Origin: Luteibacter yeojuensis
Lineage (GTDB): Bacteria > Pseudomonadota > Gammaproteobacteria > Xanthomonadales > Rhodanobacteraceae
Direction of reading: 5' to 3'
Length of the DNA stretch: 64,000 nucleotides
NCBI RefSeq assembly: GCF_011742875.1
Contig: NZ_JAAQTL010000001.1
Location: 2,728,001-2,792,000 of the forward strand
The notes under the pieces were generated by a model. The model saw nothing but the letters and a program-made list of their open reading frames with translations. It was not told the DNA's origin and made no database searches. Both the position numbers and the translations under genes were made by a program. Within the stretch, counting starts at the first letter, position 1, and every line of letters starts with the position of its first letter. Below are positions 2,916 through 46,805 of this stretch, piece after piece.

Positions 2916-2961
2916 GCTCCGATCGTAGCGTGGACTCCACACCCGCACCGGAGCAGTGGCA

Positions 2962-4557
2962 ATGGCAGTTCCCCAGCGCGCGATCGATCCCCTGTCCGGC
3001 GTCCGCTTTCAAGGCGGCGAGGTCTATCCGGACATCCTGACCCCGGCGGCCATGACCTTGGTGGCGGACCTCCATCGGCGTTTCGATGCCCGGCGCCTCG
3101 GCCTGCTGGCGGAGCGGACCGCACGCCAGCAGCGCTATGACGCCGGCGAGCTTCCCGATTTTCGCGCCGATACCGTGGCGATCCGCGAGGGCGAGTGGTC
3201 GGTGGCCCCGATCCCGGCGGCGCTGCAGGACCGCCGCGTCGAGATCACGGGTCCCGTGGAACGCAAGATGATCATCAACGCGCTGAATTCCGGGGCGAAG
3301 GTGTTCATGGCCGACTTCGAGGATTCGAGCGCGCCCACCTGGGCCAACCAGATGGACGGCCAGCGCAACCTGCGCGATGCCGTCGATGGCAGCATCGAAT
3401 TCACCAGCGCGGAGGGCAAGGCGTATCGCGTGGGTGCGACACCGGCCGCGCTCGTCGTCCGGCCCCGTGGCTGGCACCTGCCCGAGCGTCATGTCGAGGT
3501 CGACGGCGACGTGGTGTCGGGCGCGCTGGTCGATTTCGGCCTCTTCGCCTTTCACAACGCGAAAGCGCTGCAGGCCCGCGATCGCGGCCCGTATTTCTAC
3601 CTGCCGAAACTGCAAAGCATGGAAGAAGCCGCGCTGTGGAACGACGCGATGTCGCATGCCGAAGTCGCGCTCGGCCTGCCCCACGGCACGATGAAGGCGA
3701 CGGTGCTCATCGAGACGCTGCCGGCCGTGTTCCAGATGCACGAGATCCTGCACGCACTGCGCGAGCGCGTCGTCGGTCTCAACTGCGGTCGCTGGGATTA
3801 CATCTTCTCCTACCTGAAGACCTTCCGTGCACACGCAGACCGCCTGCTCCCGGAACGTGGCCAGGTCACCATGAGCGTGCCGTTCCTGAAGGCCTATTCG
3901 GAACTGCTGATCCGCACCTGCCATCGCCGTGGCGCATTCGCGATGGGCGGCATGGCAGCACAGATTCCCATCAAGGGCGACGACGCGGCCAACGAGGCCG
4001 CCATGGCCAAGGTCCGGGCGGACAAGCTGCGCGAAGTCGGCGCCGGCCACGACGGTACATGGGTGGCGCATCCCGCGCTCGTCCCGGTCGCGCAGGCGAT
4101 CTTCGACGAGCACATGCCCACGCCCAACCAGTTGCACGTGCTGCGCGAAGACGTGGACGTATCGCGCGACACGCTGATCGCACCGGCCATCGGGACGATC
4201 ACGCGGCAGGGTTTCGACAACAACGTCGAGGTGTGCCTGCGCTACACGGCCGCTTGGCTCGACGGCCTCGGCTGCGTGCCCATCCACCACCTGATGGAAG
4301 ACGCCGCCACCGCCGAGATCGCGCGCGCCCAGTTGTGGCAGTGGCTGCATCACGGACCGCTGGAGTTCAGCGACCACGCCGACGTGAACTTCGCGCTGTT
4401 CGACCAGGCTCTCGCCGCGCACTGCCACCGGCTGCGCGGGAGCGAGTTGCCCGGCGCACGCCGCGCCGATGAAGCGGCCGCGCTCATCCATGCGCTCACG
4501 CATGCGGACGAACTGCGCGATTTCCTCACCCTCCCCGCCTACGAGCACCTGTCCTGA
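2962..4557 (+). CDS. aceB: Malate synthase A
   Basis: Condenses glyoxylate and acetyl-CoA to malate, the second step of the glyoxylate bypass, in the cytoplasm. The 531-residue length matches AceB of enterobacteria (533). The family signature is present around residues 267-280 ([13 protein letters not shown]), and the N-terminal half contains [13 protein letters not shown] 2962 is preferred to GTG 2956 because CCGGAG lies 8 nt upstream of it. aceA follows after 16 bp, forming an aceBA operon that would allow growth on acetate or fatty acids. A LysR gene is divergent upstream. No aceK kinase gene is seen downstream. Confidence 0.97.
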
Positions 4558-4573
4558 ACCCCGGAGCACGACG

Positions 4574-5863
4574 ATGAAGACGCAGACCGCCGAACAGATC
4601 ACGCTCGACTGGAAGAACAACGACCGCTGGGAGGGCGTCCGGCGTCCCTATGCCGCGGAAGACGTGCTGCGCCTGCGCGGCTCCGTGCAGGTCGAGTACA
4701 CGCTCGCCCGCCGCGGTGCGGAGCGCCTGTGGCGTTCGCTTCAGGACGAGCCGTATGTCAATGCGCTGGGCGCGCTCACCGGCAATCAGGCAATGCAGCA
4801 GGTGAAGGCCGGCTTGCAGGCCATCTACCTCTCGGGCTGGCAGGTCGCCGCCGATGCGAATACCGCCGGCACGATGTATCCCGACCAGTCGCTCTACCCC
4901 GTCGACTCGGTGCCGAACGTGGTGCGCAAGATCAACAAGACCCTGCTGCGCGCGGACCAGATCCACCACGCCGAAGGAAGGGACGGCATCGACTGGCTGG
5001 TGCCGATCGTCGCCGATGCGGAAGCGGGTTTCGGCGGCGTGCTCAACGCGTACGAGCTGATGGCGCACATGATCGAGGCAGGCGCGGCGGGCGTGCATTT
5101 CGAGGACCAGCTGGCCAGTGCGAAGAAGTGCGGGCACATGGGCGGCAAGGTGCTGGTGCCGACGCAGGAGGCCGTGCAGAAGCTCGTGGCCGCGCGACTG
5201 GCCGCCGACGTCGCCGGCGTCCCGACCCTCATCGTGGCACGTACCGATGCCATGGGTGCGGGACTGGTCACCTCGGACATCGACGACCTCGACAAGCCGT
5301 TCCTGACCGGCAAGCGCACGGTCGAAGGTTTCCATGAATCGCGCCAGGGCATCGAGCAGGCGATCGCGCGCGGCCTTGCCTATGCACCGTATGCCGACCT
5401 GATCTGGTGCGAGACGGCCACGCCGGACCTGGAACAGGCGCGCCGCTTCGCCGAGGCGATCCATGCCGTGTTCCCTGGCAAGAAGCTCGCGTACAACTGC
5501 TCGCCCAGTTTCAACTGGAAGAAGAACCTGGACGAGAAGACGATCGCGGCATTCCAGAAGCGCCTGGGCGAGATGGGTTACGCCTTCCAGTTCATCACGC
5601 TGGCCGGCTTCCATGCGCTCAACTATTCGATGTTCCAACTGGCACGTGGCTACCGCGACCGGCAGATGGCCGCCTACGTCGAACTGCAGGAAGCCGAGTT
5701 CGCGGCCGAGAAGGACGGTTACACGGCGGCGAAACATCAGCGCGAAGTCGGCACGGGTTACTTCGATACTGTGAACCAGGTGATCGCCGGCTCGTTGAGT
5801 TCGCTGTCGGCGCTGAGCGGCTCTACCGAGGAACAGCAGTTCCATCCGGCCTCGGCGGCATGA
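4574..5863 (+). CDS. aceA: Isocitrate lyase
   Basis: Cleaves isocitrate to succinate and glyoxylate, the first step of the glyoxylate bypass. The protein has 429 residues; E. coli AceA has 434. The signature KKCGHMGGK is at residues 184-192 with catalytic Cys186. Other conserved blocks are NIN-type loops such as [13 protein letters not shown] and the C-terminal [14 protein letters not shown]. The start at 4574 is supported by GGAG 8 nt upstream; the longer ORF overlapping aceB has no family similarity in its extension. It is the second gene of the aceBA operon and converges with the thioredoxin-like gene at 5951. Confidence 0.97.
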
Positions 5864-16068: not shown

Positions 16069-16779
16069 TCAGGAAATCCGCGTCGCCATCCGCCGGTTCC
16101 CGGTCAGGGCCGCCCAGCGCATGCCGGTATCGATCCACATCAGGTAGCCGGCCTCCATCAGCAGGCGGGTCACGTAGCGGCGGCCGAGCGGCAGGCGCTC
16201 CTCGGCGGCAAGGGGCGCGGCGTCGAATCCGAGCCGACGGGCGAGGTAGAGGCAGCGTGCCAGGTGGTAGCGGCTGGTCACCAGCCACACCGGCGGAAGG
16301 GGCGCCTCGCTCCGCTCCCGCAACAACACGCGGGCATGGCGGAGGTTTTCGAGGGAGTCGATGGAGGCCTGCTCCAGTTCCAGCGGCACGGCGGGTGGCC
16401 AGCCTTCGGCCATCAGCCAGCGGCGCCCGGCCTCGGCTTCGCTGATGGAGCCGCCGCTGTAGCCGCCCAGCAGCAGGACCCGATCGGCGAACCCCGCGAG
16501 CGCATCGGTGCGGCCACGGGCAAGGCGGCCGAGGAAATCCGCTTCCGGACAATCGCCGACGAGCCGGCGGCCGAATATCAGCATCGCCCGGCGGCCGGCG
16601 GCCCGCGCGGGCGTGCGCGCGGCGAGCCAGCAGACGCGCGCGAGGTGCGCGGCATACACCAGCCCCAGGCTGGCGACGAAGACGACGGCGGTGACGAAGG
16701 CCGCGACGAGGATGTCGCGATCGCTGAGGTAACGCCATACGCCGCGGCGGAGGATTTTCGGAGCCTGGATACCGGACAT
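16069..16779 (-). CDS. YdcF/ElyC-like DUF218 membrane protein
   Basis: A 236-residue protein with one N-terminal membrane segment (DILVAAFVTAVVFVASLGLVYAA, about residues 22-44) and a DUF218 domain. The latter shows LLLGGYSGGSISEAEAGRRWL, SIDSLENLRHARVLL and VWLVTSRYHLARC, the pattern of YdcF/SanA/ElyC proteins linked to envelope homeostasis. The start at 16779 is a compromise: ATG 16827 would add 16 residues, and neither has a strong ribosome site. It precedes hemF on the same strand and is divergent from the pigment ketosynthase operon. Confidence 0.75.
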   Translation of the reverse strand: MSGIQAPKILRRGVWRYLSDRDILVAAFVTAVVFVASLGLVYAAHLARVCWLAARTPARAAGRRAMLIFGRRLVGDCPEADFLGRLARGRTDALAGFADRVLLLGGYSGGSISEAEAGRRWLMAEGWPPAVPLELEQASIDSLENLRHARVLLRERSEAPLPPVWLVTSRYHLARCLYLARRLGFDAAPLAAEERLPLGRRYVTRLLMEAGYLMWIDTGMRWAALTGNRRMATRIS

Positions 16780-16866
16780 GGAAGCATCCCGAAGAAAGCG
16801 CAGTATCGCCTGAACGCACGTCTGCATTCACGCGACGCTGCGGATCAAAAAGGATAGGCTCGCCGC

Positions 16867-18069
16867 ATGCCGCATCCCATGACACCGTTGGCCATCCGCG
16901 CCTACACCACCACCTCCGCCCTCGGCCGCGGTCTCCAGGCCCACGCCGATGCCCTTTCCGCCCCGCGCGGCGGCCTTGCGCCGAACGATTTCAGCGTGGC
17001 CCCGCTGGATTGCTGGATCGGCCGTGTCGCCGGCGTGGAAGACGAGCCGCTTCCGCCGGAGCTGGCCGAGTGGGACTGCCGGAACAACCGGCTCGCCTGG
17101 ATCGCCTTGCGGCAGGACGGCTTCGCCGAGGCCATGCGCGCGGCGCGCGAGCGGTATGGCGCATCGCGCGTGGCCGTGCTGCTCGGCACGTCGACGGCGA
17201 GCATCGGGGCCACCGAGGAAGGCTACCGCCGCCTCGACCATGGCCGCATGCCGGCGGACCTGCACCGGCCGGTGCTGCATACGCCGCACTCGCTCGCGAG
17301 CTTCGTCGCGGCGGCGTTCGCCCTGGAAGGCCCCTGCCTCACGGTGGCCACCGCATGCTCGTCCAGCGCGAAGGTGTTCGCCAACGCGGAGCGCATGATC
17401 CGGCTCGGCCTGGTCGATGCCGCGATCGTCGGCGGCACCGACACCCTTTGCGACAGCGTGCTGTTCGGTTTCAATTCGCTCGAACTGGTCTCGCCCGAGC
17501 CGTGCCGTCCGTTCGATGCCGCCCGCAGCGGCATTTCGATCGGGGAGGCCGCCGGCTTCGCCATCCTCGAACGCGTGGAAGCGGCGATGGACGCGCCCTT
17601 GCTCATCGGTTACGGCGAAGCCAGCGACGCCCACCACATGTCCACGCCCCACCCTGAAGGCCTGGGGGCGGAGCTCGCGCTGAACGACGCGCTGGCCCGC
17701 GCGGGCATCGCGCCCGACGACGTCGACTACATCAACCTGCACGGCACCGCCAGCCAGAAGAACGACGAAGTCGAGGCCGCGCTCGTCGCGCGGACCTTCC
17801 CCGCCTCGACCCGCGCCAGCTCGACGAAGGGCTTCACCGGGCACACCCTCGGCGCCGCGGGCATCCTCGAGGCCGCGATCACGCTCCTGTCGATGCGCGA
17901 CGGCCGCGTTCCCGCCAACCTCGGTGCCGAAACGCCGGACCCGCTGTGCGGACCGCAGATGGCCTGGCGGCCGGAAGCGGCGGATATCCGCATCGCCCTC
18001 AGCAACTCCTTCGGCTTCGGCGGCAACAACGCGTGCCTCGCCTTCGCCCGCGCGGGGCGTCACGCATGA
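16867..18069 (+). CDS. Beta-ketoacyl-ACP synthase of the aryl-polyene (xanthomonadin-type) pathway
   Basis: Claisen-condensing enzyme of 400 residues. All three catalytic elements are present: Cys164 in TACSSSA, His292 in NLHGTAS and His326 in KGFTGHTLGAAG. The FabF-like fold ends in SNSFGFGGNNA. It is the first gene of a plus-strand operon with a chain-length-factor-like partner, a glycosyltransferase and a halogenase-like enzyme, each overlapping or close. By context it elongates an aryl starter (3-hydroxybenzoyl) with malonyl units into a polyene. A general fatty-acid role is less likely because of the dedicated neighbours. It is divergent from the DUF218 gene. Confidence 0.93.
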   Translation: MPHPMTPLAIRAYTTTSALGRGLQAHADALSAPRGGLAPNDFSVAPLDCWIGRVAGVEDEPLPPELAEWDCRNNRLAWIALRQDGFAEAMRAARERYGASRVAVLLGTSTASIGATEEGYRRLDHGRMPADLHRPVLHTPHSLASFVAAAFALEGPCLTVATACSSSAKVFANAERMIRLGLVDAAIVGGTDTLCDSVLFGFNSLELVSPEPCRPFDAARSGISIGEAAGFAILERVEAAMDAPLLIGYGEASDAHHMSTPHPEGLGAELALNDALARAGIAPDDVDYINLHGTASQKNDEVEAALVARTFPASTRASSTKGFTGHTLGAAGILEAAITLLSMRDGRVPANLGAETPDPLCGPQMAWRPEAADIRIALSNSFGFGGNNACLAFARAGRHA

Positions 18070-18866
18070 GCGCCGCGCTGTCGGTCTGGGTGAGCGGCAT
18101 CGGCCTCTGGGCACCGGGGGCCGCCGACTGGCACGCCTTCAGCGAGATCGCCACGGGCGCGGCCACGCCGGGTGCGACGGAGCGGCCGCTCGCCGAGGTG
18201 CTTCCGCCGAACGAGCGGCGACGCGCACCGGAAAGCGTCTTGCTGGCGGCCGCGGCCGCCGGCCAGGCCGTGCGCATGAGTGGCCGCGACGCAGCCACCC
18301 TGCCCTGCGTGTTCGCCTCCGCGCATGGCGACCAGGTCATCACCGACTACATGTGCGAAACGCTGGCCAGCCACCCGCGCGAACTGTCGCCGACGAAGTT
18401 CCACAACTCCGTGCACAACGCACCGGCGGGCTACTGGACCATCGCCACGCACTGCCGTGCATCGTCGAGCGCCGTCTCTGGTGGCGAGGAAGCATTCGGC
18501 GCAGGCTTGCTCGAAGCCGCCACGCTGGCGGTGGCCGACGACCGCGACGTGCTGCTGGCGAGCTACGACATCGCCGGGACGGGGCCGCTCGGCGACATGA
18601 CCAGCACCACCGGTCCGTTCGCCGTCGCGCTCGTGCTCTCCCCTCGCGCCGACGGCGCGGCCGTACGGCTCGACATCACGCCGGAGCGCGGCAACAGTGG
18701 CATCGAGGCACTCGGCGATGCCTGGCTCGACGGGCTTGTCGCGACCAATCCCTCCGCACGCGCGGTGCCGTTGATGCGCGCGCTCGCGCTCGCCCGCCCA
18801 GCGGCGCTGCGCGTGCCCGCGGCGCGGGGGCTCGACCTGCACATCGACATCGGCGTGGCCGCATGA
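18066..18866 (+). CDS. Ketosynthase-like chain-length factor
   Basis: A 266-residue protein with only the N-terminal ketoacyl-synthase half (Ketoacyl-synt_2-like). It shows VSGIGLWAPGAADWHAFSE and a degenerate active-site region THCRASSSA around residues 128-136. Compared with TACSSSA of the upstream KS, the nucleophile is displaced or lost, and no His pair is seen. Such proteins act as non-catalytic partners of the KS in aryl-polyene synthesis and influence chain length. Its ATG overlaps the KS stop (ATGA), and its own stop overlaps the next start, so 1:1 co-translation is likely. Confidence 0.85.
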   Translation: MSAALSVWVSGIGLWAPGAADWHAFSEIATGAATPGATERPLAEVLPPNERRRAPESVLLAAAAAGQAVRMSGRDAATLPCVFASAHGDQVITDYMCETLASHPRELSPTKFHNSVHNAPAGYWTIATHCRASSSAVSGGEEAFGAGLLEAATLAVADDRDVLLASYDIAGTGPLGDMTSTTGPFAVALVLSPRADGAAVRLDITPERGNSGIEALGDAWLDGLVATNPSARAVPLMRALALARPAALRVPAARGLDLHIDIGVAA

Positions 18867-19615
18867 GCATCGCCACGCCTCGCTACTGCATCCTCATCCC
18901 CTGCCTCAATGAGGAACAGGCGATCGGACGCGTCGTGGGCGAGGCCCTCGCGCTCGGGCTTCCCGTCATCGTCGTCGACGACGGTTCGGACGACCGCACC
19001 CCGGACATCGTGGGCGCCATGCCGGTCACCCTGCTCCGCCATGCGACACGCCGGGGCAAGGGCGAGGCGTTGCGCACCGGTTTCCGCGAAGTGCGCCGCC
19101 TGGGTTACGACGCCGTGGTGACGATGGATGGCGACGGCCAGCACCTCGCATCGGACATCCCCGCCATCATCGCCGCAGCCGAACGTTACCCGGGCTGCAT
19201 CGTCATCGGCGCGCGCCTGCTCGATCGCGAACAGCAGCCCAGCGGACGGCGACGCGCCAACGCGGTCGCCGACTGGGGCATCTCCTGGGCATGCGGCCGC
19301 CCGATCGCCGACACGCAGAGCGGTCAGCGGCTCTATCCGCGCGAGACGCTGGACCTGGCCGATCTTCCGGCCGAACATTTCGTCTTCGAGGCCGCCGTGC
19401 TCATCACCGCCTGCCGCGAGCGCGGCATCGGCGTAGTCTCGGTACCCATCGCGTCGCGTTACCACGGCGAGTTCCGACTCAGCCATTTCCATCCCGTGCG
19501 CGACGTCACCAGGATCACCACCTACACGATCGGCCGGGTGATCCATTACGGAAGTATCCTCGCCAGCTACCGCCGGTCGCGGGCCCATCCCACGATCGTC
19601 GACGAGACACACTGA
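18863..19615 (+). CDS. Family 2 glycosyltransferase in the pigment cluster
   Basis: A 250-residue GT-A enzyme. The nucleotide-sugar-binding motif is VVDDGSDDRT (about residues 37-46), and a DxD-type motif is TMDGDGQHL (about 88-96). It resembles dolichol-phosphate mannosyltransferase-like GT2 proteins but has no C-terminal membrane helices. It overlaps the upstream gene by ATGA and is followed after 28 bp by the halogenase-like gene. It may glycosylate the polyene or a lipid carrier; the acceptor cannot be read from the sequence. Confidence 0.85.
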   Translation: MSIATPRYCILIPCLNEEQAIGRVVGEALALGLPVIVVDDGSDDRTPDIVGAMPVTLLRHATRRGKGEALRTGFREVRRLGYDAVVTMDGDGQHLASDIPAIIAAAERYPGCIVIGARLLDREQQPSGRRRANAVADWGISWACGRPIADTQSGQRLYPRETLDLADLPAEHFVFEAAVLITACRERGIGVVSVPIASRYHGEFRLSHFHPVRDVTRITTYTIGRVIHYGSILASYRRSRAHPTIVDETH

Positions 19616-19643
19616 AAAGAGCGCTTGAAGGGGAGTCGAACCG

Positions 19644-21239
19644 ATGGACCGCAAGATGCACGATGTCGTCATCCTCGGTGGGGGCCTTGCCGGGCTCACG
19701 CTGGCCATGCAGCTCAAGGGCGCCTATCCCGACCTGACCGTCGTCGTGCTGGAGCGACAGGTGCGGCCGTTGCCCGAGGCGGCCCACAAGGTGGGCGAGT
19801 CCACCGTCGAGATCGCCGCGCATTATTTCGGCCACACCATCGGACTGCTCCCGCACCTCGAAGAAGCGCACATCCGGAAGTTCGGATTCCGCTTCTTTTT
19901 CTCCGAAGGCAGGGAGGACCTCGAGGACGTCGCCGAACTCGGCGTGAGCGCGGTGCTTCCCACACCCAGCTACCAGATCGACCGCGGCATCCTGGAAAAC
20001 TTCCTCGGCGAGGAGTCGCGCCGCCGCGGCATCGACTTCCGCGAAGGCGTGACGGTACGCGGCTTCGACATAGGCGCGGGCGAGGAACCGCACACGGTTC
20101 GCTACACGGACGGCGAAGGCGAGCAAACCCTGCAAGCCCGCTGGATGGTGGACGCGTCCGGCCGCGCGGGACTCATCCGCCGCAAGCTGGACCTCACGCG
20201 CGACAACGGTCATCACGCCAATGCCGTGTGGTTCCGCATCGGCGAGCGCCTGGCGATCGACGACTGGTGCGACGACGCGGAATGGAAAGAACGTTGCCAT
20301 CCGCCGGAACGCTGGCGTTCCACCAACCACCTCGTCGGACCCGGCTATTGGGTGTGGCTGATTCCCCTCTCGTCCGGCGCGCATTCGGTCGGCATCGTCG
20401 CCGACGCCGGGATGCACCCGCTGGAGGGCATGAAGACCTTCGACCTCGCCCTGGCCTGGCTGGAAGAACACCAGCCCGTCGTCGCGAGGCATGTCGCCGC
20501 GCATCGCGACAAACTGCTCGATTTCGCCTTCTTCCGGAATTTCTCCTACGGCTGCTCGCGGATGTTCTCGTCCGATCGCTGGGCACTCACCGGCGAAGCG
20601 GGCGCGTTCCTCGATCCGTTCTATTCCCCTGGCAGCGATTTCATCGCGATCGCCAATACCTACATCACGCTACTGGTCGGCATCGACCGGCGCGGCGACA
20701 GGCTGGCATCGTATGCGCGCCACTACGAACGGATGTTCTTCTCGTTCTACGAAGGCACGCTGAAGATGTACCGCGGGCAGTACAACCTGTTCGGCGATCC
20801 GGAAGTCATGCCGGTGAAGGTGATCTGGGATTACGCGTACTACTGGGGCGTGCTCTGCCAGATCGTCTTCCAGAACCGCCTCGGCGACGATGCGTTCATC
20901 ACCCGCATGGGCCCGGAGTTCCAGTGCTGCGCCGAGCTCAACACGGCGATGCAGGCGTTCTTCCAGCGCTGGCATGCGCTGTCGGAGCGCCGCAACGGAA
21001 GGGCCATGCTGGACCAGCGCGACCTCGCCTGGTTCGCCGACATGAACGCAACGCTGCACGATAGCCTCGACGACGACTCGCTTGCCGGGCGCCTGCGCGA
21101 CAACATGCGCATGATGCAGGCGCTGGCCTCGAGCATCGTCGAGCGTGCGGCCGCGGACTATCCGTCGGTGGTGGAGGGGTACGGGCACCTCGTCGGCCCC
21201 GAGGGACAGCGCATGGATCTGTTCGAGCAGGTAGCCTGA
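19644..21239 (+). CDS. Flavin-dependent halogenase-like enzyme of the pigment cluster
   Basis: A 531-residue FAD protein. The N-terminal Rossmann motif is GGGLAGLT (residues 12-19), KVGESTVE (49-56) corresponds to the conserved VGEST region, and Lys79 in HIRKFGF sits where halogenases carry their catalytic lysine (alignment by eye). The halogenase motif WxWxIP is exact as WVWLIP at 236-241, and a further flavin motif is GEAGAFLDPFYSPG. This supports a flavin-dependent halogenase rather than a monooxygenase. Xanthomonadins are brominated aryl polyenes, so bromination of the aryl head or chain is the likely job; that is inference. GGGG upstream of ATG 19644 serves as a ribosome site. It is the last gene of the operon. 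Confidence 0.82.
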   Translation: MDRKMHDVVILGGGLAGLTLAMQLKGAYPDLTVVVLERQVRPLPEAAHKVGESTVEIAAHYFGHTIGLLPHLEEAHIRKFGFRFFFSEGREDLEDVAELGVSAVLPTPSYQIDRGILENFLGEESRRRGIDFREGVTVRGFDIGAGEEPHTVRYTDGEGEQTLQARWMVDASGRAGLIRRKLDLTRDNGHHANAVWFRIGERLAIDDWCDDAEWKERCHPPERWRSTNHLVGPGYWVWLIPLSSGAHSVGIVADAGMHPLEGMKTFDLALAWLEEHQPVVARHVAAHRDKLLDFAFFRNFSYGCSRMFSSDRWALTGEAGAFLDPFYSPGSDFIAIANTYITLLVGIDRRGDRLASYARHYERMFFSFYEGTLKMYRGQYNLFGDPEVMPVKVIWDYAYYWGVLCQIVFQNRLGDDAFITRMGPEFQCCAELNTAMQAFFQRWHALSERRNGRAMLDQRDLAWFADMNATLHDSLDDDSLAGRLRDNMRMMQALASSIVERAAADYPSVVEGYGHLVGPEGQRMDLFEQVA

Positions 21240-21241
21240 GG

Positions 21242-21275
21242 CCGAGACCCCTGTATGGCGGGCGTCTCGGTCTTT
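21242..21275 (+). terminator. Terminator hairpin after the plus-strand pigment operon
   Basis: CCGAGAC (21242-21248) pairs with GTCTCGG (21264-21270), with extra CCC/GGG pairing inside, followed by TCTTT. It starts three bases after the halogenase stop codon. Confidence 0.55.
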
Positions 21276-21305
21276 GAGACGGCCGGCGGGCAGACTGTTT
21301 CCCGT

Positions 21306-21367
21306 CGACCCGGAGGGGCCGGTCAGGCTCCTCATCAGTCACCCTTTCGCGCTGTCCCTCCGGGTCG
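21306..21367. repeat. 12-bp inverted repeat between convergent pigment operons
   Basis: CGACCCGGAGGG (21306-21317) and CCCTCCGGGTCG (21356-21367) are perfect complements 38 nt apart. They may form a long-loop hairpin that separates the convergent transcripts. No T-tract is present. Confidence 0.45.
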
Positions 21368-21385
21368 TCGACATACCCTCGGTGG

Positions 21386-21820
21386 CTACGCGTCCCGATA
21401 GAGCACGGCGGCGCGGCCGGATGCGATCTCCCGCCCGCGGTGCAGGATGCGGAAGCCATACTGCGCGCCGCTGCCGTCGGCGATCAGGCATTCCGCGTGT
21501 ACATCGAGCGGACCCTGCAACGTATCCACGCGATCCACAGCGAGCTTCACGCCGCGCAGGCTGACCAGCATGCCGGCGCGCGGCCGGGTGCGTCCCTGTT
21601 CGCGCGCGAGCAGCGCCCCGTGCACGGCCATCGCCTGTGCCCCGTATTCGGCCAGATGCACCGCGTGCAGTCCCTCTTCGCCGCGCAGCGGGTGCGCGAC
21701 CAGCACATGGCTCGTGCTGACCGCATGGATCGTCGTGGCGTCCCAGGCCTGCACGCCGTCCAGCAGGCACATGTCGCCCGCATGAGGGATGAGGTCAACG
21801 AACTCGGTCTTGGGCAGCAT
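21386..21820 (-). CDS. Hot-dog fold 3-hydroxyacyl-ACP dehydratase-like protein (ApeP-type)
   Basis: A 144-residue single hot-dog domain. The N-terminal LIPHAGDMCLLD carries the conserved histidine (His13) and corresponds to the FabA/FabZ P-H motif. The helix EYGAQAMAVHGAL and the strands MLVSLRGVKL and QYGFRILHRG match ApeP-type dehydratases of aryl-polyene loci. It likely dehydrates 3-hydroxyacyl-ACP intermediates to make the conjugated double bonds. It overlaps the MMPL gene by 26 bp and is last in the minus-strand operon. Confidence 0.82.
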   Translation of the reverse strand: MLPKTEFVDLIPHAGDMCLLDGVQAWDATTIHAVSTSHVLVAHPLRGEEGLHAVHLAEYGAQAMAVHGALLAREQGRTRPRAGMLVSLRGVKLAVDRVDTLQGPLDVHAECLIADGSGAQYGFRILHRGREIASGRAAVLYRDA

Positions 21821-24134
21821 GCGGAGCCATCAGGATCGAAAGGCAGAAGTGGAAGGCGACGCCCAGCGCCACCGTGAGGCCGATCGCGCGGAGCACGGGA
21901 ATCGACGACCAGGCGAGCATGCCGAACACGAGCAGTGCCGCGATGACGCAGACCACCGTGGCATGCAGCGTACGCCGCTGCTCGGCAGGGTCGCCGGTGT
22001 CGCGCTCGAAGAACAGCGCATAGTGCAAACCCAGGCCCGCGGCGAGGATCAAGGCCACGAGGTGGAACAGCGAGATGGGAATGCCCGCCATGCGCTCCAC
22101 CGCCAGCACGAGGAAGGTGGCGAGCGTCATCGGCGCGAGCACGTGCCACGCACGGCGGATGCTGCGTAACGCCAGCGTGATGGTGAGGAACAGCAGTGCG
22201 GCGGCGGCAAGCACGGCGTGAAGGATGCGCGTGCGATACGCGGCCACGAGCGACTCCGAGGCCTCTTTCAGGTCGAGCAGGCGCGCGCCTGGATCGGCAG
22301 CGGCCACGGCCGCCGCGACGGCGGCCGCGTCATGCACGCCGCTCAGGGTCGACAGACCCACCCAGTGGTCGCCACGCGGCAGCAGCATCGCGGCAAGGCG
22401 CTGGCCGAGCGGCGACCGGGCGAACACCTCGGGCGTGAGCAACGGCGCGCTGCGCGCCGTTTCGACGTCGTCGACGAAGGGCGCGAACAGGTCCTTGCGG
22501 AACGGCATGCCGTCGAGGGCCTTCGTCAGCGAGGCGTCGAGCGTCGCGCGATCCGGCAGTTTCGCCTGGCGTGCGCGTTGCGTCGCCAGGTCGGGAAGGT
22601 AGATCGACGGCAGTTCGAAGCCATCGAGCGCCTTTGCCGCCACCTGCCCGCGCAGGCGCGGTTCCAGCTTCGCCGAGGCGGCGAGCACGCCATCGGCCGT
22701 CTTTGCCTGCACGATCAGGAGGTAGCGGACATCCGGCGCACCAAGCTCGCCGCGCAGGCGCGCGTCCGTCATCAACAGATCGCGCGGCAACGGCGTGAGC
22801 GCCGAGAGGTCGTTCTGCCAGAACGGGCCGGGGGCGAACGCGATCATCGCGACCACCGCCGCGGCGATGGGAACGGGCAGCCAGCGCGGACGCGGCAAGG
22901 CGTCGAGCCAGCCACGGAAGGCCGCGAGGCCCGGCATGCGCGCGACGTCGCGCGCGTGCTCGGGGAGCAGGTAGGGCAAGGCATAGCGCGTGCTGAACCC
23001 CGCGGCGAGCAGGCCGGCGATCGTGAACACGGCCAGCTGCTGCAACCCTCCGACGCCCGACGCATAGAAAGCGAGGTAGGCGATACAGGCCGAAGCGATG
23101 GCCGTGAGCAGCAGCGGCCACAATCCACGCACGCTCGCCACGGCGGATTCGCCCTCGCGGCGATGGCTCAGCAGGCGGATGGGGTATTCCTGCGCCACGC
23201 CCAGCAGCGTGAAGCCGAAGGCCAGCGTGATGCCATGCACCTCGGCAAAGCACACCGTCAACAACGCGATGCCCGCGAGCGCGCCGGTCGCGACCGGCAA
23301 CGCGCCGAGCAACAGGCTGCGCACACTGCGATAGGCGACCAGCATCAGCACGATGAAGCCGATGGTCGAGATACGGCCGATCCAGTCGGCCTGATCGCGC
23401 GTCTGCGCATTCACCACCACGGTGAAATAGCCGGGGCCGCTGATCGTCAGGTGCGCCGCGGCGCTGCCCGGCAATGCCGCGAAGGCCGCGCGGAGGCGGC
23501 CGATGGCGTCCTCCTGCGCGCCCGGATCGAAACCCGCACCGCGCGTCTGCGCGAGCAGCAGGGCTTCCCCGCGCGACGAAAACCATACGCCATCGCGCAC
23601 CTCGGGCGAGCGGACCGGCGTCCAGCGCTCGGCCAGCTTCAGCGTTTCGAGCGTGGGGTCGCGCGGCAGCAGGCCCTTGAGCAGGGTGGCCGCGGGCGAG
23701 CCGAGGTCGTCGAGGCGCTGCTGCAACTCGTCGGCCAGGTAGCCCTCGTCGAGCGAACCGGTGTCGAGCGTCGGCGAAAGCAGGTAGCGGTAAGGCAGCA
23801 GCGCGCTGTCCAGCATGCCGAGGTCGAAATCGCCATTCACCACCTGGGTGAATGCCGGATCCTTGCGCAGGGCAAGCGCCAGGCCGCGGCTGAGAGCCGC
23901 CTTCGCCGTGTCGTCGCCGCCGTCGATCGCGACGAGCAGCAGGCGGGAACCGGGCCCCTCGCCCACCTGCTCCATCAGCAGCTTCTGGTCCGGCGTGGTC
24001 GGTGCGGGCATGAAGCTGCGCAGGTCGGTGCCGACCTTCAGCTGCGTGGCGACCAGCGTGCCGAGCAGCGCGAGGACGAGGATCCAGGCGACGAGCAGGG
24101 CGAGGCGCGCGCCCCTCACATCGCGCCGCCGCAC
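21795..24134 (-). CDS. MMPL/RND-family exporter of the pigment cluster
   Basis: A 779-residue inner-membrane transporter. It has an N-terminal helix (LALLVAWILVLALLGTLVATQ), then a periplasmic domain and two repeats of about five to six membrane helices (about 240-390 and 620-770), the RND/MMPL layout. The first repeat contains GFIVLMLVAYRSV and TLLGVAQEYPIRLLSHRREG; the second contains LHYALFFERDTGD. Homologous proteins in aryl-polyene and xanthomonadin loci are thought to move the lipid-linked pigment out of the inner membrane. It overlaps the LolA-like gene by 19 bp, suggesting stoichiometric production with that periplasmic partner. Confidence 0.9.
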   Translation of the reverse strand: MRRRDVRGARLALLVAWILVLALLGTLVATQLKVGTDLRSFMPAPTTPDQKLLMEQVGEGPGSRLLLVAIDGGDDTAKAALSRGLALALRKDPAFTQVVNGDFDLGMLDSALLPYRYLLSPTLDTGSLDEGYLADELQQRLDDLGSPAATLLKGLLPRDPTLETLKLAERWTPVRSPEVRDGVWFSSRGEALLLAQTRGAGFDPGAQEDAIGRLRAAFAALPGSAAAHLTISGPGYFTVVVNAQTRDQADWIGRISTIGFIVLMLVAYRSVRSLLLGALPVATGALAGIALLTVCFAEVHGITLAFGFTLLGVAQEYPIRLLSHRREGESAVASVRGLWPLLLTAIASACIAYLAFYASGVGGLQQLAVFTIAGLLAAGFSTRYALPYLLPEHARDVARMPGLAAFRGWLDALPRPRWLPVPIAAAVVAMIAFAPGPFWQNDLSALTPLPRDLLMTDARLRGELGAPDVRYLLIVQAKTADGVLAASAKLEPRLRGQVAAKALDGFELPSIYLPDLATQRARQAKLPDRATLDASLTKALDGMPFRKDLFAPFVDDVETARSAPLLTPEVFARSPLGQRLAAMLLPRGDHWVGLSTLSGVHDAAAVAAAVAAADPGARLLDLKEASESLVAAYRTRILHAVLAAAALLFLTITLALRSIRRAWHVLAPMTLATFLVLAVERMAGIPISLFHLVALILAAGLGLHYALFFERDTGDPAEQRRTLHATVVCVIAALLVFGMLAWSSIPVLRAIGLTVALGVAFHFCLSILMAPHAAQDRVR

Positions 24135-24763
24135 TGTGCGATGAGGCCCTCGCGGGTCGGCGCCGCCGGCATCGCGGCGGCGAGGTCGCCGAGCAGGTCG
24201 ATCGAGGTGTCGCCGTCGCTTTCGTCCATGCGCATGCAGCGGGCGAGTTGTCCGCTGCCGTAGACGTGGATGCCGGCGATCTGCTTCGCGACGCGTGCGT
24301 CGCGCGGGGTCAGGGTGAGCTGCCAGCGGTCGGCGTCGCGACCCAGCCTGACCTCGAACGATTCGCCGAGCCGCGACGGGTCGCCGGCGAGCAGGGCGAC
24401 GAAGCTGTCGAGCAGCACCTGCAATTGCGGAGCGCGCTTCAGCGAGAAGCTGCGTGGCTTCCTCCCCTCGCGCTCCTGCGTCACCTCGCCGTCGGCGATC
24501 GTGGAGACTTCCTTCGCGGGCTTCTCCACCCGGCGCTCGAGGCGATCGCCGCCGAGCCAGGCGAGTTCGCCCGAAACCACCAGCGGCTTCTCCAGCACAC
24601 GCATGAAGCGCGCTTCCGCGAAGGGCGTGCGCGCGGGTGCCGGGCGATGCAGGCTGGCGATCAGCGCGTTTGCGTCATCCGCGTCAGGCGTCGGAGTGGC
24701 TGGGCACGCGAGCGGCAGCAGCAGGCTCGTCAGCAGCAGGGCCAGTTTCTTGCCAGAAGTCAT
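24116..24763 (-). CDS. LolA-like outer-membrane lipoprotein carrier family protein
   Basis: A 215-residue exported protein. The start MTSGKKLALLLTSLLLPLAC at 24763 gives a signal peptide; a Cys follows, but the residue three before it is Pro, so a lipoprotein is doubtful. The domain shows FMRVLEKPLVVSGELAWLG and a C-terminal GDAD-type strand pattern (RLGRDADRWQLTLTPRD) as in LolA_like/DUF1439-type carriers of aryl-polyene loci. It probably shuttles the lipid-bound pigment across the periplasm. Its start lies 80 bp inside the upstream acyltransferase gene, an unusually long overlap. Confidence 0.8.
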   Translation of the reverse strand: MTSGKKLALLLTSLLLPLACPATPTPDADDANALIASLHRPAPARTPFAEARFMRVLEKPLVVSGELAWLGGDRLERRVEKPAKEVSTIADGEVTQEREGRKPRSFSLKRAPQLQVLLDSFVALLAGDPSRLGESFEVRLGRDADRWQLTLTPRDARVAKQIAGIHVYGSGQLARCMRMDESDGDTSIDLLGDLAAAMPAAPTREGLIAQCGGAM

Positions 24764-25634
24764 AGAAATTGAACCAGTTGAAGGGATACAGGCGGGCGTA
24801 ATGCTCCACGCGCGCGGCATAGCGGGCGACAAGGCCGTCCAGCGCGGCCGCACGCTCCGCGCGCGGCACGTCGATGCCGTCCGAAAAGGCCTCGAAGATC
24901 AGCCGGTAGCGATTGCCGCCGAGGTAGATGCCCATGCACAGCACGACGGGAATCTTCAGCGCGGATGCGAGGTGCCATGGGCCGACGGGGAACGGTGCCG
25001 GCCGGCCGAGGAAGGGAACCCGGCGGGTGGCCTCGTTGCGGTGGCCGCGGTCGGCCAGCAAGGCCACCATGCCGCCCTGGGCGGCGCCCTCGGCCATGGC
25101 CAAGGCCACGGAGGCGCCCCCGCGCGACGCGTCGATCACGGCCGCGCCCACGTCCGGCGCCAGCGCCTCCAGGACCGCGGTGAGCGCCGGGGTCTTCTGC
25201 TTGTCCAGCACGACGCGCAAGGGGACATCCGGACGACGGGCGCCGAGCGCGCGCAGGGCCTCGAAGCTGCCCTGGTGCGAACCGATCAGCAGGACACCTT
25301 TGCCGGCGTCGATGCAACGGTCGAGCTCCTGCAGCCCCTCCACGTCCACCGCGAAGTCGCGTTCCCCGTGCGCCAGGAAGAACAGGCGATCGAGCAGGGT
25401 CGCGGCGAACATGTGGATATGCCGGAACACGTCGTAGTTCGTGACCGGACGGTTCAATACCCGCGCGAGGTAGGTACGCGAGGCCAGCCGTTCGTCCGCG
25501 CGGCGCAGGAAGAAGTACAAGGCGATGGGATACAGCAGCACGCGTGCCACGCCACGGCCCAGCCGCAGCGCGATCGTGCGGATCAGCCAGATGGCGAACC
25601 AACCGCCGCCTTCGCGTTGCTTCCAATGGCTCAT
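24684..25634 (-). CDS. LpxL/HtrB-like acyltransferase of the pigment cluster
   Basis: A 316-residue inner-membrane acyltransferase of the lipid A lauroyl/myristoyl transferase superfamily. It has an N-terminal membrane-anchoring region (FAIWLIRTIALRLG, VLLYPIALYFFLRR), the catalytic Hx4E motif SHQGSFE at His120/Glu125, and DRGHRNEATRRVPFLGRPAPFPVGPWHLA further on. In this context it should esterify the polyene chain to a glycerol-lipid acceptor. Its start overlaps the stop of the ApeI-like gene (ATGA), and its 3' end overlaps the LolA-like gene by 80 bp. Confidence 0.87.
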   Translation of the reverse strand: MSHWKQREGGGWFAIWLIRTIALRLGRGVARVLLYPIALYFFLRRADERLASRTYLARVLNRPVTNYDVFRHIHMFAATLLDRLFFLAHGERDFAVDVEGLQELDRCIDAGKGVLLIGSHQGSFEALRALGARRPDVPLRVVLDKQKTPALTAVLEALAPDVGAAVIDASRGGASVALAMAEGAAQGGMVALLADRGHRNEATRRVPFLGRPAPFPVGPWHLASALKIPVVLCMGIYLGGNRYRLIFEAFSDGIDVPRAERAAALDGLVARYAARVEHYARLYPFNWFNFYDFWQETGPAADEPAAAARVPSHSDA

Positions 25635-25960
25635 GCGCCCTCCAGCGTGCCGCGGAGCAGCGTATCCGGGCCGCGGCGAACAGTGAAGCGGAAGCGCGTG
25701 TCGTCCAGCGCCACGAGTTCGAGTTCCGCGTCCTCGTCGGGCAGGAGCGGGGCCACGAATTTCGCGTCGACGACCTGCCGCACCGCGAGCCCGCGCCAGC
25801 TTCGCAGCGCCAGCGCCGCGGCCTCAAGCAGGAGCACGCCGGCCACGACGGGGCGACCGGGAAAGTGACCGGCAAAACTCGGATGCGCCGCGGCGAAACG
25901 CAGCGGACGCACGAACGGCGCGGACTCTGACTCGGTCATCGACATCTCCGGGCGAAGCAA
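25631..25960 (-). CDS. Small FabZ-like dehydratase (ApeI-type)
   Basis: A 109-residue hot-dog protein. The motif AHPSFAGHFPGRPVVAGVLLLE contains the catalytic His32 and the FPGRP turn of FabZ/ApeI dehydratases. Strands VDAKFVAPLLPDEDAELEL and RFRFTVRRG follow. Aryl-polyene loci usually encode two dehydratases of unequal size, as here. ATG at residue 7-8 (about 25942) is an alternative start. It is coupled to the acyltransferase by a 4-bp overlap and lies 34 bp after the ACP gene. Confidence 0.85.
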   Translation of the reverse strand: MLRPEMSMTESESAPFVRPLRFAAAHPSFAGHFPGRPVVAGVLLLEAAALALRSWRGLAVRQVVDAKFVAPLLPDEDAELELVALDDTRFRFTVRRGPDTLLRGTLEGA

Positions 25961-25994
25961 AGCACGCTCCGGGCCAGTACGGCCTGAACGACGA

Positions 25995-26267
25995 TCAGGC
26001 GGTGGCGCGATGCTGTTCGATATGCGCGGACAGCGTGCTCAGGTTTGTGAAGATGGCGCGATTGTCCGGGTTGTCGGACTTCAGCTGGAAGCCGTAACGC
26101 TTGGACACGGCCAGCGCGATTTCCAGCGCGTCGATGGAATCGAGGCCCAGGTCGCCGCCGAACAGCGGGGCTTCCGGGTCGATCTCGGTGGGCTTCACCG
26201 ATTCGAGGTTCAGGCTGGTGACGATGAGTTCGGCCAGTTCTTTCTGTGCTGCGGTCTGCGTTGCCAT
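25995..26267 (-). CDS. Acyl carrier protein of the aryl-polyene cluster
   Basis: A 90-residue four-helix carrier protein. The phosphopantetheine site is Ser44 in GLDSIDALE, preceded by DPEAPLFGGDLG. It is the first gene of the minus-strand operon and diverges from the chorismatase gene across a 145-bp gap that must hold both promoters. It should carry the 3-hydroxybenzoyl starter and growing polyene. A second ACP, usual in aryl-polyene loci, was not found in the window. Confidence 0.9.
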   Translation of the reverse strand: MATQTAAQKELAELIVTSLNLESVKPTEIDPEAPLFGGDLGLDSIDALEIALAVSKRYGFQLKSDNPDNRAIFTNLSTLSAHIEQHRATA

Positions 26268-26412
26268 GGGTGTTTCCAGGTCCTGGATGTTCCTGCCTCC
26301 CCCCGGATGGCAGCGGGCGCGGAGTTTAGCACAGGGGTCGTTGGACCACCTTCGGAACGGTTCAGACTGGTGAAGACCGGACGTTCACGCCGCGGCCCGG
26401 CGAGGGGACGAT

Positions 26413-27438
26413 ATGATGGCGCGACCGCGTTGGACGGAAGACCCGATGCTCCCAGGAAGCGAAATGCGCCAGCCCGCGCCACAGGCCACCCATGCACGCA
26501 CCGCGCCGCGCGTGCGCTACACACACGAATCCGGCGGGCTTTCGTCGTCCACATTGGCCGCCTTCGACTTTGGCGCATCCGCCCCCGCCTTCGACGATCC
26601 CCGGCGCTTCCGGGTGGCGCTGGAACCCTTCGGCGAAGCGCTGAGCGAAGTCTGGGAGGTGGACGGCGAGGTATGCAGCGGGCGCGAAGGCGAGCTGCGC
26701 TGGTCGCGCGGCGGCGGCTGGCTGTTCGCCGCGGTGGAGTGCCGGGAGGACGAGCACGGCGGCACCGAGGGTGCCGCAAGGCATGCCTATGGCCTGCTCT
26801 CGGGTCTTGTCGGCGGCGCGCCGGAGCAGCACGTGCAGCGGATCTGGAATTACCTCGGCGCGATCAACGCGGGGGACGACGACGACGAGCGCTACAAGCA
26901 TTTCTGCACGGGACGCATCGGCGGCATGGGCGAGATTTTCGCCCAGGGCTTTCCCGCGGCGACAGCGATCGGACACCACGCGGATCCCACGCTGCTCCAG
27001 GTGTACCTGCTGGCCACGGACCGTCCCGGCACGCGTGTGGAGAATCCTCGCCAGGTAAGCGCCTGGCGCTATCCCCGGCAATACGGGCGCACGCCGCCGA
27101 GCTTCGCGCGGGCCACGCTGCTGCCCGCCGGCGACGTGCTCGCCATCTCGGGAACGGCGGCGGTCGTCGGGCACGCGTCGGCGCATGCGGGTGACATCGA
27201 CGCGCAGCTGGCCGAGACGCTGCGCAATCTCGAGGCGCTCCTGGCCGCCGGTGGCCTGCCGGCCGGACTCGGACATCTTGCGCCAATGAAGGCTTACGTG
27301 CGCCATCCGGAACATGTGGCGACGGTGCGCGCTTTCGCCGCGAAGCACTTTCCCGAAGCGCCGTTGCTGGTATTGCATGGCGACATCTGCCGCGCCGAAC
27401 TGCTGATCGAAATCGACGGCTGGCGCTATCGCGGCTGA
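26413..27438 (+). CDS. XanB2-like chorismatase (3-/4-hydroxybenzoate synthase)
   Basis: A 341-residue protein similar to XanB2 and the FkbO/Hyg5 chorismatase family. XanB2 of Xanthomonas converts chorismate to 3- and 4-hydroxybenzoate, feeding xanthomonadin and ubiquinone. Visible family blocks are AFDFGASAPAFDDPRRF, YLGAINAGDDDDERYKHFC, ISGTAAVVGHASAHAGD and the C-terminal active-site strand DICRAELLIEIDGWRY. GAGGGG lies 7 nt before ATG 26413; downstream ATGs at 26446 and 26464 also have ribosome-like sites. In this locus it replaces the ammonia-lyase that makes the aryl starter in other aryl-polyene clusters. A REP doublet starts 5 bp after the stop. Confidence 0.88.
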   Translation: MMARPRWTEDPMLPGSEMRQPAPQATHARTAPRVRYTHESGGLSSSTLAAFDFGASAPAFDDPRRFRVALEPFGEALSEVWEVDGEVCSGREGELRWSRGGGWLFAAVECREDEHGGTEGAARHAYGLLSGLVGGAPEQHVQRIWNYLGAINAGDDDDERYKHFCTGRIGGMGEIFAQGFPAATAIGHHADPTLLQVYLLATDRPGTRVENPRQVSAWRYPRQYGRTPPSFARATLLPAGDVLAISGTAAVVGHASAHAGDIDAQLAETLRNLEALLAAGGLPAGLGHLAPMKAYVRHPEHVATVRAFAAKHFPEAPLLVLHGDICRAELLIEIDGWRYRG

Positions 27439-46608: not shown

Positions 46609-46805
46609 TCTCTGTCGATCCTTGTTTTTTCCCCACAGTGTAGCGGACCACTTCCAAGCATAGCCCCCCGGAAACATTCGACGATCCCGTCACGCGACGA
46701 GGTTGTTCAGCACAGCCTTTCGTCAAATTCAGCGTGCGCCTACAGCGAGCCGTGGGCGCGCCCGGCAAATTGGCGCCTCCCCCCTCGCCAAGGACATGGC
46801 AACCC

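Follow-up and report, generated by a model that had tools for sequence, protein, structure and literature searches.

Published xanthomonadin-like loci include those of Xanthomonas, Lysobacter, Variovorax and Azoarcus. In Lysobacter enzymogenes, strains deleted for the ketosynthase (KS), acyl carrier protein (ACP) or ketoreductase (KR) gene were white, and a strain without the xanB2 homologue had about 90% less pigment, which 3-hydroxybenzoate restored (PMC3691225). Here we describe a xanthomonadin-like aryl-polyene (APE) locus, locus A, at positions 16867 to 27438 of a 64,000-nucleotide stretch of the Luteibacter yeojuensis genome (the window; G000:C1:2728001-2792000 of 4.22 Mb), together with a second, unlinked cluster, cluster B, that probably provides parts that locus A lacks. 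The arcuflavin pathway of Azoarcus sp. BH72 is likewise xanthomonadin-like, and its pigment requires both of two unlinked loci; most of its functions appear a single time in the combined list of these loci, to which a dialkylresorcinol part is joined (excerpts of PMC3949708), whereas the two clusters described here are paralogous and show complementary thinning.

Loci of the locus A type are already listed for Luteibacter from in silico predictions. All five strains of Luteibacter mycovicinus are listed with an "Arylpolyene (Xanthomonadin I-like)" and an "Arylpolyene" cluster (PMC11165876, Table 1), although the excerpts of that paper neither compare the clusters gene by gene nor mention a missing KR or shared parts; a xanthomonadin is predicted for Luteibacter flocculans (PMC9965599), and two APE clusters each are reported for two Rhodanobacter species in the literature excerpts. 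The presence of the locus is therefore ordinary, and what is new is the complementary thinning of two loci. In the open-licence literature, represented mostly by titles and the openings of abstracts, we found no prior description of APE loci that share parts or are complementary.

RESULTS

Locus A consists of a plus-strand operon (16867-21239) and a minus-strand operon (26267-21386) that converge, and a XanB2-type chorismatase gene (26413-27438, plus strand) that diverges from the ACP gene. This is the layout given by the original prediction, made by a model from the sequence of the window, and all 11 genes that it named run open from start to stop, with Pfam support and a codon-position GC content typical of the genome's genes. 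The parts required of a xanthomonadin-type locus are present, namely, a KS beside a half KS resembling a chain-length factor (CLF) and the XanB2-type chorismatase, as are an ACP, two hot-dog dehydratases (DH1 and DH2), an LpxL-like acyltransferase (LPLAT), a LolA-like carrier, an MMPL-family exporter and a family 2 glycosyltransferase (GT2). Because the fetched loci of Luteibacter and Dyella and most of those of Rhodanobacter retain the gene set, flanked by hemF and glmU, the set is not a chance assembly. The closest named kin at the putative halogenase gene (HAL), Luteibacter jiangsuensis CGMCC 1.10133 (86%) and Luteibacter sp. SG786 (85%), have the same hemF and glmU neighbors. The prediction of a xanthomonadin-like locus thus stands on an intact gene set kept in relatives. 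Its description of the chromosome as unlike that of Xanthomonas fared less well: the chromosome is Luteibacter-like, but Luteibacter belongs to the same order as Xanthomonas.

No KR gene lies at locus A, where HAL and DH1 are separated by a 146-base gap (21240-21385); L012, L056 and other Rhodanobacter loci have their KR gene at this place. Nor is there a gene for the small membrane protein that other loci carry between DH2 and ACP; the relatives' protein has no Pfam hit, and we take it to resemble COG4648. Among 64 related loci, the fetched stretch of 24 contains a match to the Rhodanobacter locus A-type KR (KR-A), and 13 have HAL and DH1 without a KR (nine Luteibacter, two Dyella, one Rhodanobacter and one metagenome-assembled genome [MAG] named only Lysobacterales); the other 27 show neither a KR nor the HAL-DH1 stretch and are uninformative on this point. 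When Rhodanobacter KR-A was used to query the Luteibacter genome itself, 30 short-chain dehydrogenase/reductase (SDR) matches were returned at an E value of ≤0.001, the best of which (45% identical) lies inside cluster B, so that the idea of a KR merely displaced nearby was abandoned. We accordingly do not file locus A as a self-contained xanthomonadin locus; from its gene content, it would be a xanthomonadin-like variant. The pathway type given by the original prediction holds, but the pathway at the locus is incomplete, with the KR and the ligase elsewhere in the genome.

Cluster B was found through this best KR match together with the genome's only other PF13723 protein (215 bits). It comprises 17 genes at C1:1687533-1701485, 1 Mb from locus A, in the order ACP1, GT2, LolA, MMPL, KS1, KS2, CLF, PlsC-type acyltransferase, ACP2, membrane protein, ApeI-like DH, LPLAT, hot-dog protein (thioesterase label assigned by eye), methyltransferase, KS3, ApeP-like DH and KR, followed by a gene for a FUSC protein. 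Its ApeI- and ApeP-like DH, KS, CLF, KR, methyltransferase and ACP genes make it an APE cluster. APE clusters of this type are known from Escherichia coli and Xenorhabdus, and those of the E. coli type carry a ligase. Cluster B resembles them in its ApeI- and ApeP-like DH, three KS, CLF, two ACP, KR, methyltransferase, MMPL and LolA genes. Where BLAST aligns them, counterparts in A and B are 25 to 44% identical (KS-A/KS3, 41%; ACP/ACP2, 44%; CLF, 33%; MMPL, 28%; LolA, 25%), and DH2 of locus A and the ApeI-like DH of cluster B give a weak phmmer match only. Judged by these sequences, the counterparts are old paralogues and not a recent copy. A Pfam scan of the genes of A and B, which included no DarA/DarB model and did not extend to the rest of the genome, showed no DarA or DarB gene.

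We then compared the distribution of the two KR types. In a family draw of 147 genomes, HAL (E value, ≤1e-100) occurred in 54 and the KR of cluster B (KR-B, at least 78% identity) occurred in 55. Seventeen of the 54 HAL genomes carried a B-type KR (82 to 100% identical), and none of the 17 had an A-like KR match near HAL; locus A could be read in 16 of them and contains no KR, the contig of G170 ending after HAL. All 37 HAL genomes without KR-B had an A-like KR match (43 to 49% identical to KR-B), which lies within 35 kb of HAL in 30 of them; in the remaining 7, it is farther off or on another contig, and these unlinked calls are less sure because ordinary SDRs reach 44 to 45%. A similar division was seen in the 29 genomes behind named loci, 14 of which have KR-B orthologues (82 to 94%): all 13 with a KR-less locus A and 1 of the 16 others (G023, which has both KR types). 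CLF-B alone was rejected as a marker of this rule, since G007 and G011 lack CLF-B yet retain KR-B.

Both regions were fetched for KR-B genomes and every gene was scored, giving a matrix of 54 genomes with both loci and, with KR excluded, 540 paired cells. Of the 55 KR-B genomes of the draw, the matrix excludes eight: G170 (the contig ends), G044 (cluster B was not fetched), G097 (the A region is incomplete), G031 (the A locus is of another type, with a 45% KS) and G057, G069, G160 and G174 (regions not fetched, G160 also being without KS-A at 1e-90). Seven known only via named loci were added (G003, G005, G007, G008, G009, G014 and G023). Partial matches in locus A were scored as absent (G012 LolA and G018 MMPL), partial ApeI matches in cluster B were scored as present (19 genomes), and KR-A of G042 was scored as present though it is a two-piece remnant.

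Genes were absent in 119 of the 540 cells of A and in 70 of the 540 cells of B, and there were no double absences. Shuffling of the B rows, which ignores kinship, gave a mean of 13.75 double absences and never fewer than 2, so that none of 20,000 shuffles was as low as the observed value; with KR included, 17 of 20,000 shuffles were as low for the 23 HAL genomes. MMPL and LolA were present at both loci in 14 genomes, in A only in 9 and in B only in 31. The corresponding numbers were 44, 4 and 6 for DH1/ApeP and again for DH2/ApeI; 6, 3 and 45 for the membrane protein; 49, 5 and 0 for GT2; and 45, 9 and 0 for each of KS, CLF, LPLAT and ACP, with no genome lacking any of these functions at both loci. 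Across the compared genomes, every paired part absent from one locus still has its counterpart at the other, as though the two loci formed a single pool of interchangeable parts.

Dollo counts on a quick tree gave nine losses of MMPL from A and seven from B, with no overlap. When the seven B losses were placed at random, overlap was avoided in 24 of 20,000 placings with branches weighted by length and in 18 of 20,000 with branches treated as equal; for the three losses of the B membrane protein, the values were 175 and 41 of 20,000, respectively. These counts and placings rest on a tree in which 22 of 53 inner branches are open and the G040 branch is long.

Five genomes have a reduced cluster B whose remaining genes are precisely the paired functions absent from locus A. 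Locus A of G011 (a MAG) and G090 (the window's genus code, no HAL) lacks only the KR of the paired genes, and cluster B is reduced to the KR alone between its usual flanks. In the sisters G081 and G096 (no HAL), locus A lacks the KR and the membrane protein, and cluster B consists of these two only. In G167 (no HAL), locus A lacks the KR, both DH genes, MMPL, LolA and the membrane protein, and cluster B retains exactly six genes: KR, ApeP, ApeI (a partial match), MMPL, LolA and the membrane protein. KR-B has no stops and retains YSASK in all five, with ratios of nonsynonymous to synonymous substitution (dN/dS) of 0.067 (G081/G096), 0.133 (G011/G012), 0.139 (G011/G018), 0.055 (G090/G008) and 0.155 (G167/G110). 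Where KR-B stands alone or nearly so, the gene is whole and looks conserved by selection. Three genomes with HAL (G007, G062 and G139) have losses at both loci: KR, MMPL, LolA and the membrane protein are absent from A and kept in B, and B lacks CLF, KS3, ACP2, LPLAT and methyltransferase, all of which but the methyltransferase have a counterpart in A. KR-A of G042 is in two pieces, with residues 113 to about 192 gone, a case of KR-A loss in progress. A different state was seen in L117 (G046:C1:3488000-3507999), where cluster B is reduced and its KR is broken, in a genome without a KS-A match; the lineage of G046 may have abandoned the pigment.

No AMP ligase gene lies within locus A; one is found 23 kb off at 50123-51496 (minus strand, PF00501), between sua5 (51509) and purD (48762), and the idea that the ligase was missing from the genome was dropped. 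It is 35 to 50% identical over most of its length to the ligases inside seven xanthomonadin-like loci (L032, L039, L051, L052, L061, L062 and L065), and among the genome's six AMP-binding stretches (L076-L081), it is the one that these ligases match strongly, with one other matched weakly. None of the six lies in cluster B, which was thus rejected as the source of the ligase and which differs in this from the E. coli-type cluster. All 29 relatives searched have a match to the window ligase (55 to 89%), broken up in places (two pieces in G017, two contigs in G025 and one internal stop each in G019 and G021), and the gene lies between sua5/topA and purD in 12 of the 12 relatives fetched. The gene, in a topA-sua5-purD block, encodes a ligase of the right family, which would activate the starter.

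The starter itself would come from the chorismatase (FkbO/Hyg5-like in Pfam). Its best PDB match is 5ag3 (1.5e-40), which we take to be Hyg5, and its Cys326 aligns with a Cys in that structure and with an Ala in FkbO (4bps). The Cys is present in 49 of the 52 A regions with a match, the remaining 3 having no readable motif. A Cys at this position marks 3-hydroxybenzoate formers; the enzyme would, by inference, supply 3-hydroxybenzoate, and its earlier designation as XanB2-like is upheld by both the family match and the residue.

The plus-strand operon begins with the gene for KS-A (16867-18069; PF00109/PF02801), in which Cys164, His292 and His326 presumably have the roles assigned to these motifs, and continues with CLF-A (18066-18866; PF13723, 1.2e-25). 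The top PDB matches of the two proteins are both chains of 6qsp (2e-71 and 4.2e-13, respectively), which we take to be the Xenorhabdus aryl-polyene KS:CLF. GT2 (18863-19615; PF00535, matched on a longer frame enclosing the gene) and HAL (19644-21239; PF04820, 6e-14) follow. On the minus strand lie the genes for DH1, which is ApeP-like with His13 (21386-21820; PF22817 at 24.4 bits, below the cutoff of 27), MMPL (21795-24134; 21.2 bits, cutoff 20.5), LolA (24116-24763; LolA_3), LPLAT (24684-25634; Lip_A_acyltrans), DH2, which is FabA-like with His27 (25631-25945; 25.5 bits, cutoff 23), and the ACP (25995-26267; Pfam ACP), with Ser44 in GLDSIDALE. A DUF218 gene (16069-16827, minus strand; identified by Pfam and in relatives' loci) diverges from KS. 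It adjoins KS also in distant loci that have no hemF match (L032, L050, L051, L052 and L055) and is possibly part of the pigment locus.

Our comparison with Xanthomonas rests on the excerpts of PMC3691225 and PMC3949708 and on the locus of Lysobacter tolerans (L050). L050 matches locus A in order and strands (KS, CLF, GT2, HAL, DH1, MMPL, LolA, LPLAT, DH2, ACP, XanB2) but has in addition a KR after HAL, the membrane protein between DH2 and ACP, and a second halogenase-like gene (HAL2) before XanB2; no ligase was found in its stretch. In Xanthomonas campestris, the ligase and xanB2 have neighboring locus numbers (Xcc4015 and Xcc4014; PMC3949708), whereas the window ligase is elsewhere. The gene at the place of GT2 in other loci is described as dolichyl-phosphate-mannose-synthase-like (PMC3691225), and because GT2 genes are usual in such loci in the excerpts (PMC3691225, PMC3949708), GT2 gives no sign of the distinct sugar that had been suggested.

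Two further genes occur in relatives and are absent from the window locus. HAL2, an FAD gene of about 450 codons whose product is 25 to 29% identical to HAL and has HIGESL in place of KVGEST, is present in 14 of the 64 relatives (L022, L032, L039-L041, L048, L050-L052, L055, L060-L062 and L065), near XanB2 where XanB2 is in view. A Kef-type antiporter-like gene, so labeled by eye, lies between GT2 and HAL in 15 (L010, L017-L020, L022-L025, L029, L048, L053, L057, L059 and L063); the Azoarcus locus lists an Na+/H+ antiporter, arcG (PMC3949708). Elsewhere in the window, a DDE transposase gene at its start (15-818) lies upstream of the genes for malate synthase (2956-4557) and isocitrate lyase (4469-5863), a single frame (44734-46677) combines an MFS transporter with a PlsC-type acyltransferase domain, and a 673-residue protein encoded beside purD (46734-48755) has a ricin-type beta-trefoil lectin domain as its sole Pfam hit.

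DISCUSSION

We propose that A and B probably supply parts to one pathway in trans and that locus A depends on the unlinked cluster B. Following the named families and the excerpts of PMC3691225 and PMC3949708, XanB2 would make 3-hydroxybenzoate from chorismate and the ligase would activate it; KS-A with CLF-A would extend this starter on the ACP, and the growing chain would be reduced by the KR of cluster B and converted to the polyene by the dehydratases. The halogenase would brominate the ring or the chain, the LpxL-like acyltransferase would transfer the polyene to a lipid, and LolA and MMPL would carry the product to the outer membrane. Because a KR is needed in L. enzymogenes and none lies at locus A, it is simplest to suppose that KR-B acts in trans, a view that finds support in the loss patterns.

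Halogenation is a question separate from part sharing. HAL has the GGGLAG, Lys79, WVWLIP (residues 236 to 241) and DPFYSPGSDF motifs, and so shows the GxGxxG, WxWxIP and catalytic Lys of flavin-dependent halogenases; in an alignment of 62 kin, Lys79 is conserved in 61 (the other has a gap) and WxWxIP in all 62. The earlier designation of this FAD protein as a halogenase thus agrees with its motifs, and the predicted yellow pigment of locus A is probably brominated. The enzyme could instead be another flavin enzyme, such as a hydroxylase, and the pigment could be unhalogenated: HAL matches solved halogenases only distantly (best E value, 3.6e-18), the second-best match is a flavoprotein named a dehydrogenase, and neither halide nor substrate is given by sequence alone. 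We regard this as rather unlikely given the conservation of the motifs and the excerpts of PMC3691225, in which Xanthomonas loci have a halogenase gene and L. enzymogenes, which lacks one, makes a pigment without the bromine pattern.

The two loci might also be independent, with locus A using a housekeeping FabG, cluster B making its own polyene and the matching losses reflecting coincidence and shared descent. Such a FabG could serve A, there being 30 matches to KR-A in the genome and the best outside B reaching 39 to 42%; many of the genomes in the matrix are closely related, and shared descent is part of the explanation of the loss pattern. Cluster B is complete in the window genome and MMPL and LolA are doubled there, so that merging is not shown by the window alone, and G051 and G124 (no HAL) carry CLF-A and gave a match to neither KR type. 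Independence leaves unexplained, however, why KR-B stays whole under low dN/dS, alone or with one more gene, after the other losses in B, why cluster B of G167 holds exactly the six paired functions absent from A, and why the loss events of A and B avoid each other on the tree; we consider it unlikely. A decaying locus A, with no pigment in KR-less lineages, is far less probable still. KR-A, the membrane protein, MMPL and LolA are indeed absent from A in many genomes, KR-A is in two pieces in G042, MMPL is a fragment in G018 and HAL of G170 has one stop. Against decay, CLF, GT2, LPLAT and ACP of A are present in 54 of 54 genomes, as is KS (KS or CLF partly by genome choice), the HAL motifs are retained in aligned kin, and Luteibacter is described as yellow in the excerpts of PMC9965599 and PMC11165876.

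Several further points weigh against a shared pathway or reduce the force of the counts. Genomes entered the matrix by having KR-B, and in most cases were also chosen by a locus A HAL, CLF or KS match, so that the presence of KR-B and of KS-A/CLF-A in it is largely by construction; genomes that wholly lost A or B drop out, and MMPL, LolA, DH and the membrane protein were sought in the A and B regions, not genome-wide. The family draw scored the best 19 KR candidates per genome, and other HAL-less genomes have KR matches of only 42 to 44%. Finally, G046 has no KS-A at 1e-90 and a broken KR-B.

With these points weighed, we still lean toward the view that, in a large part of the Rhodanobacteraceae, two complete, paralogous and unlinked pathways have fused into a shared assembly line in which KR, dehydratase, carrier and export parts cross between clusters. 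Under such fusion, either locus could shed modules kept by the other, down to a lone KR or a six-gene remnant, and the window would represent an early stage, in which A needs B for the KR and the membrane protein and the other paired parts are doubled.

If this is correct, two separately annotated APE clusters, one of them without a ketoreductase, would be one pathway, and the 54 genomes would show which type II polyketide parts tolerate a partner from the other cluster: the KR, the dehydratases, the MMPL-LolA exporter and the membrane protein. GT2, LPLAT and ACP of locus A are kept in all 54, as are KS and CLF, the last two partly by genome choice. Cross talk between APE machines would be testable by single deletions, and it would caution against reading gene clusters as self-contained.

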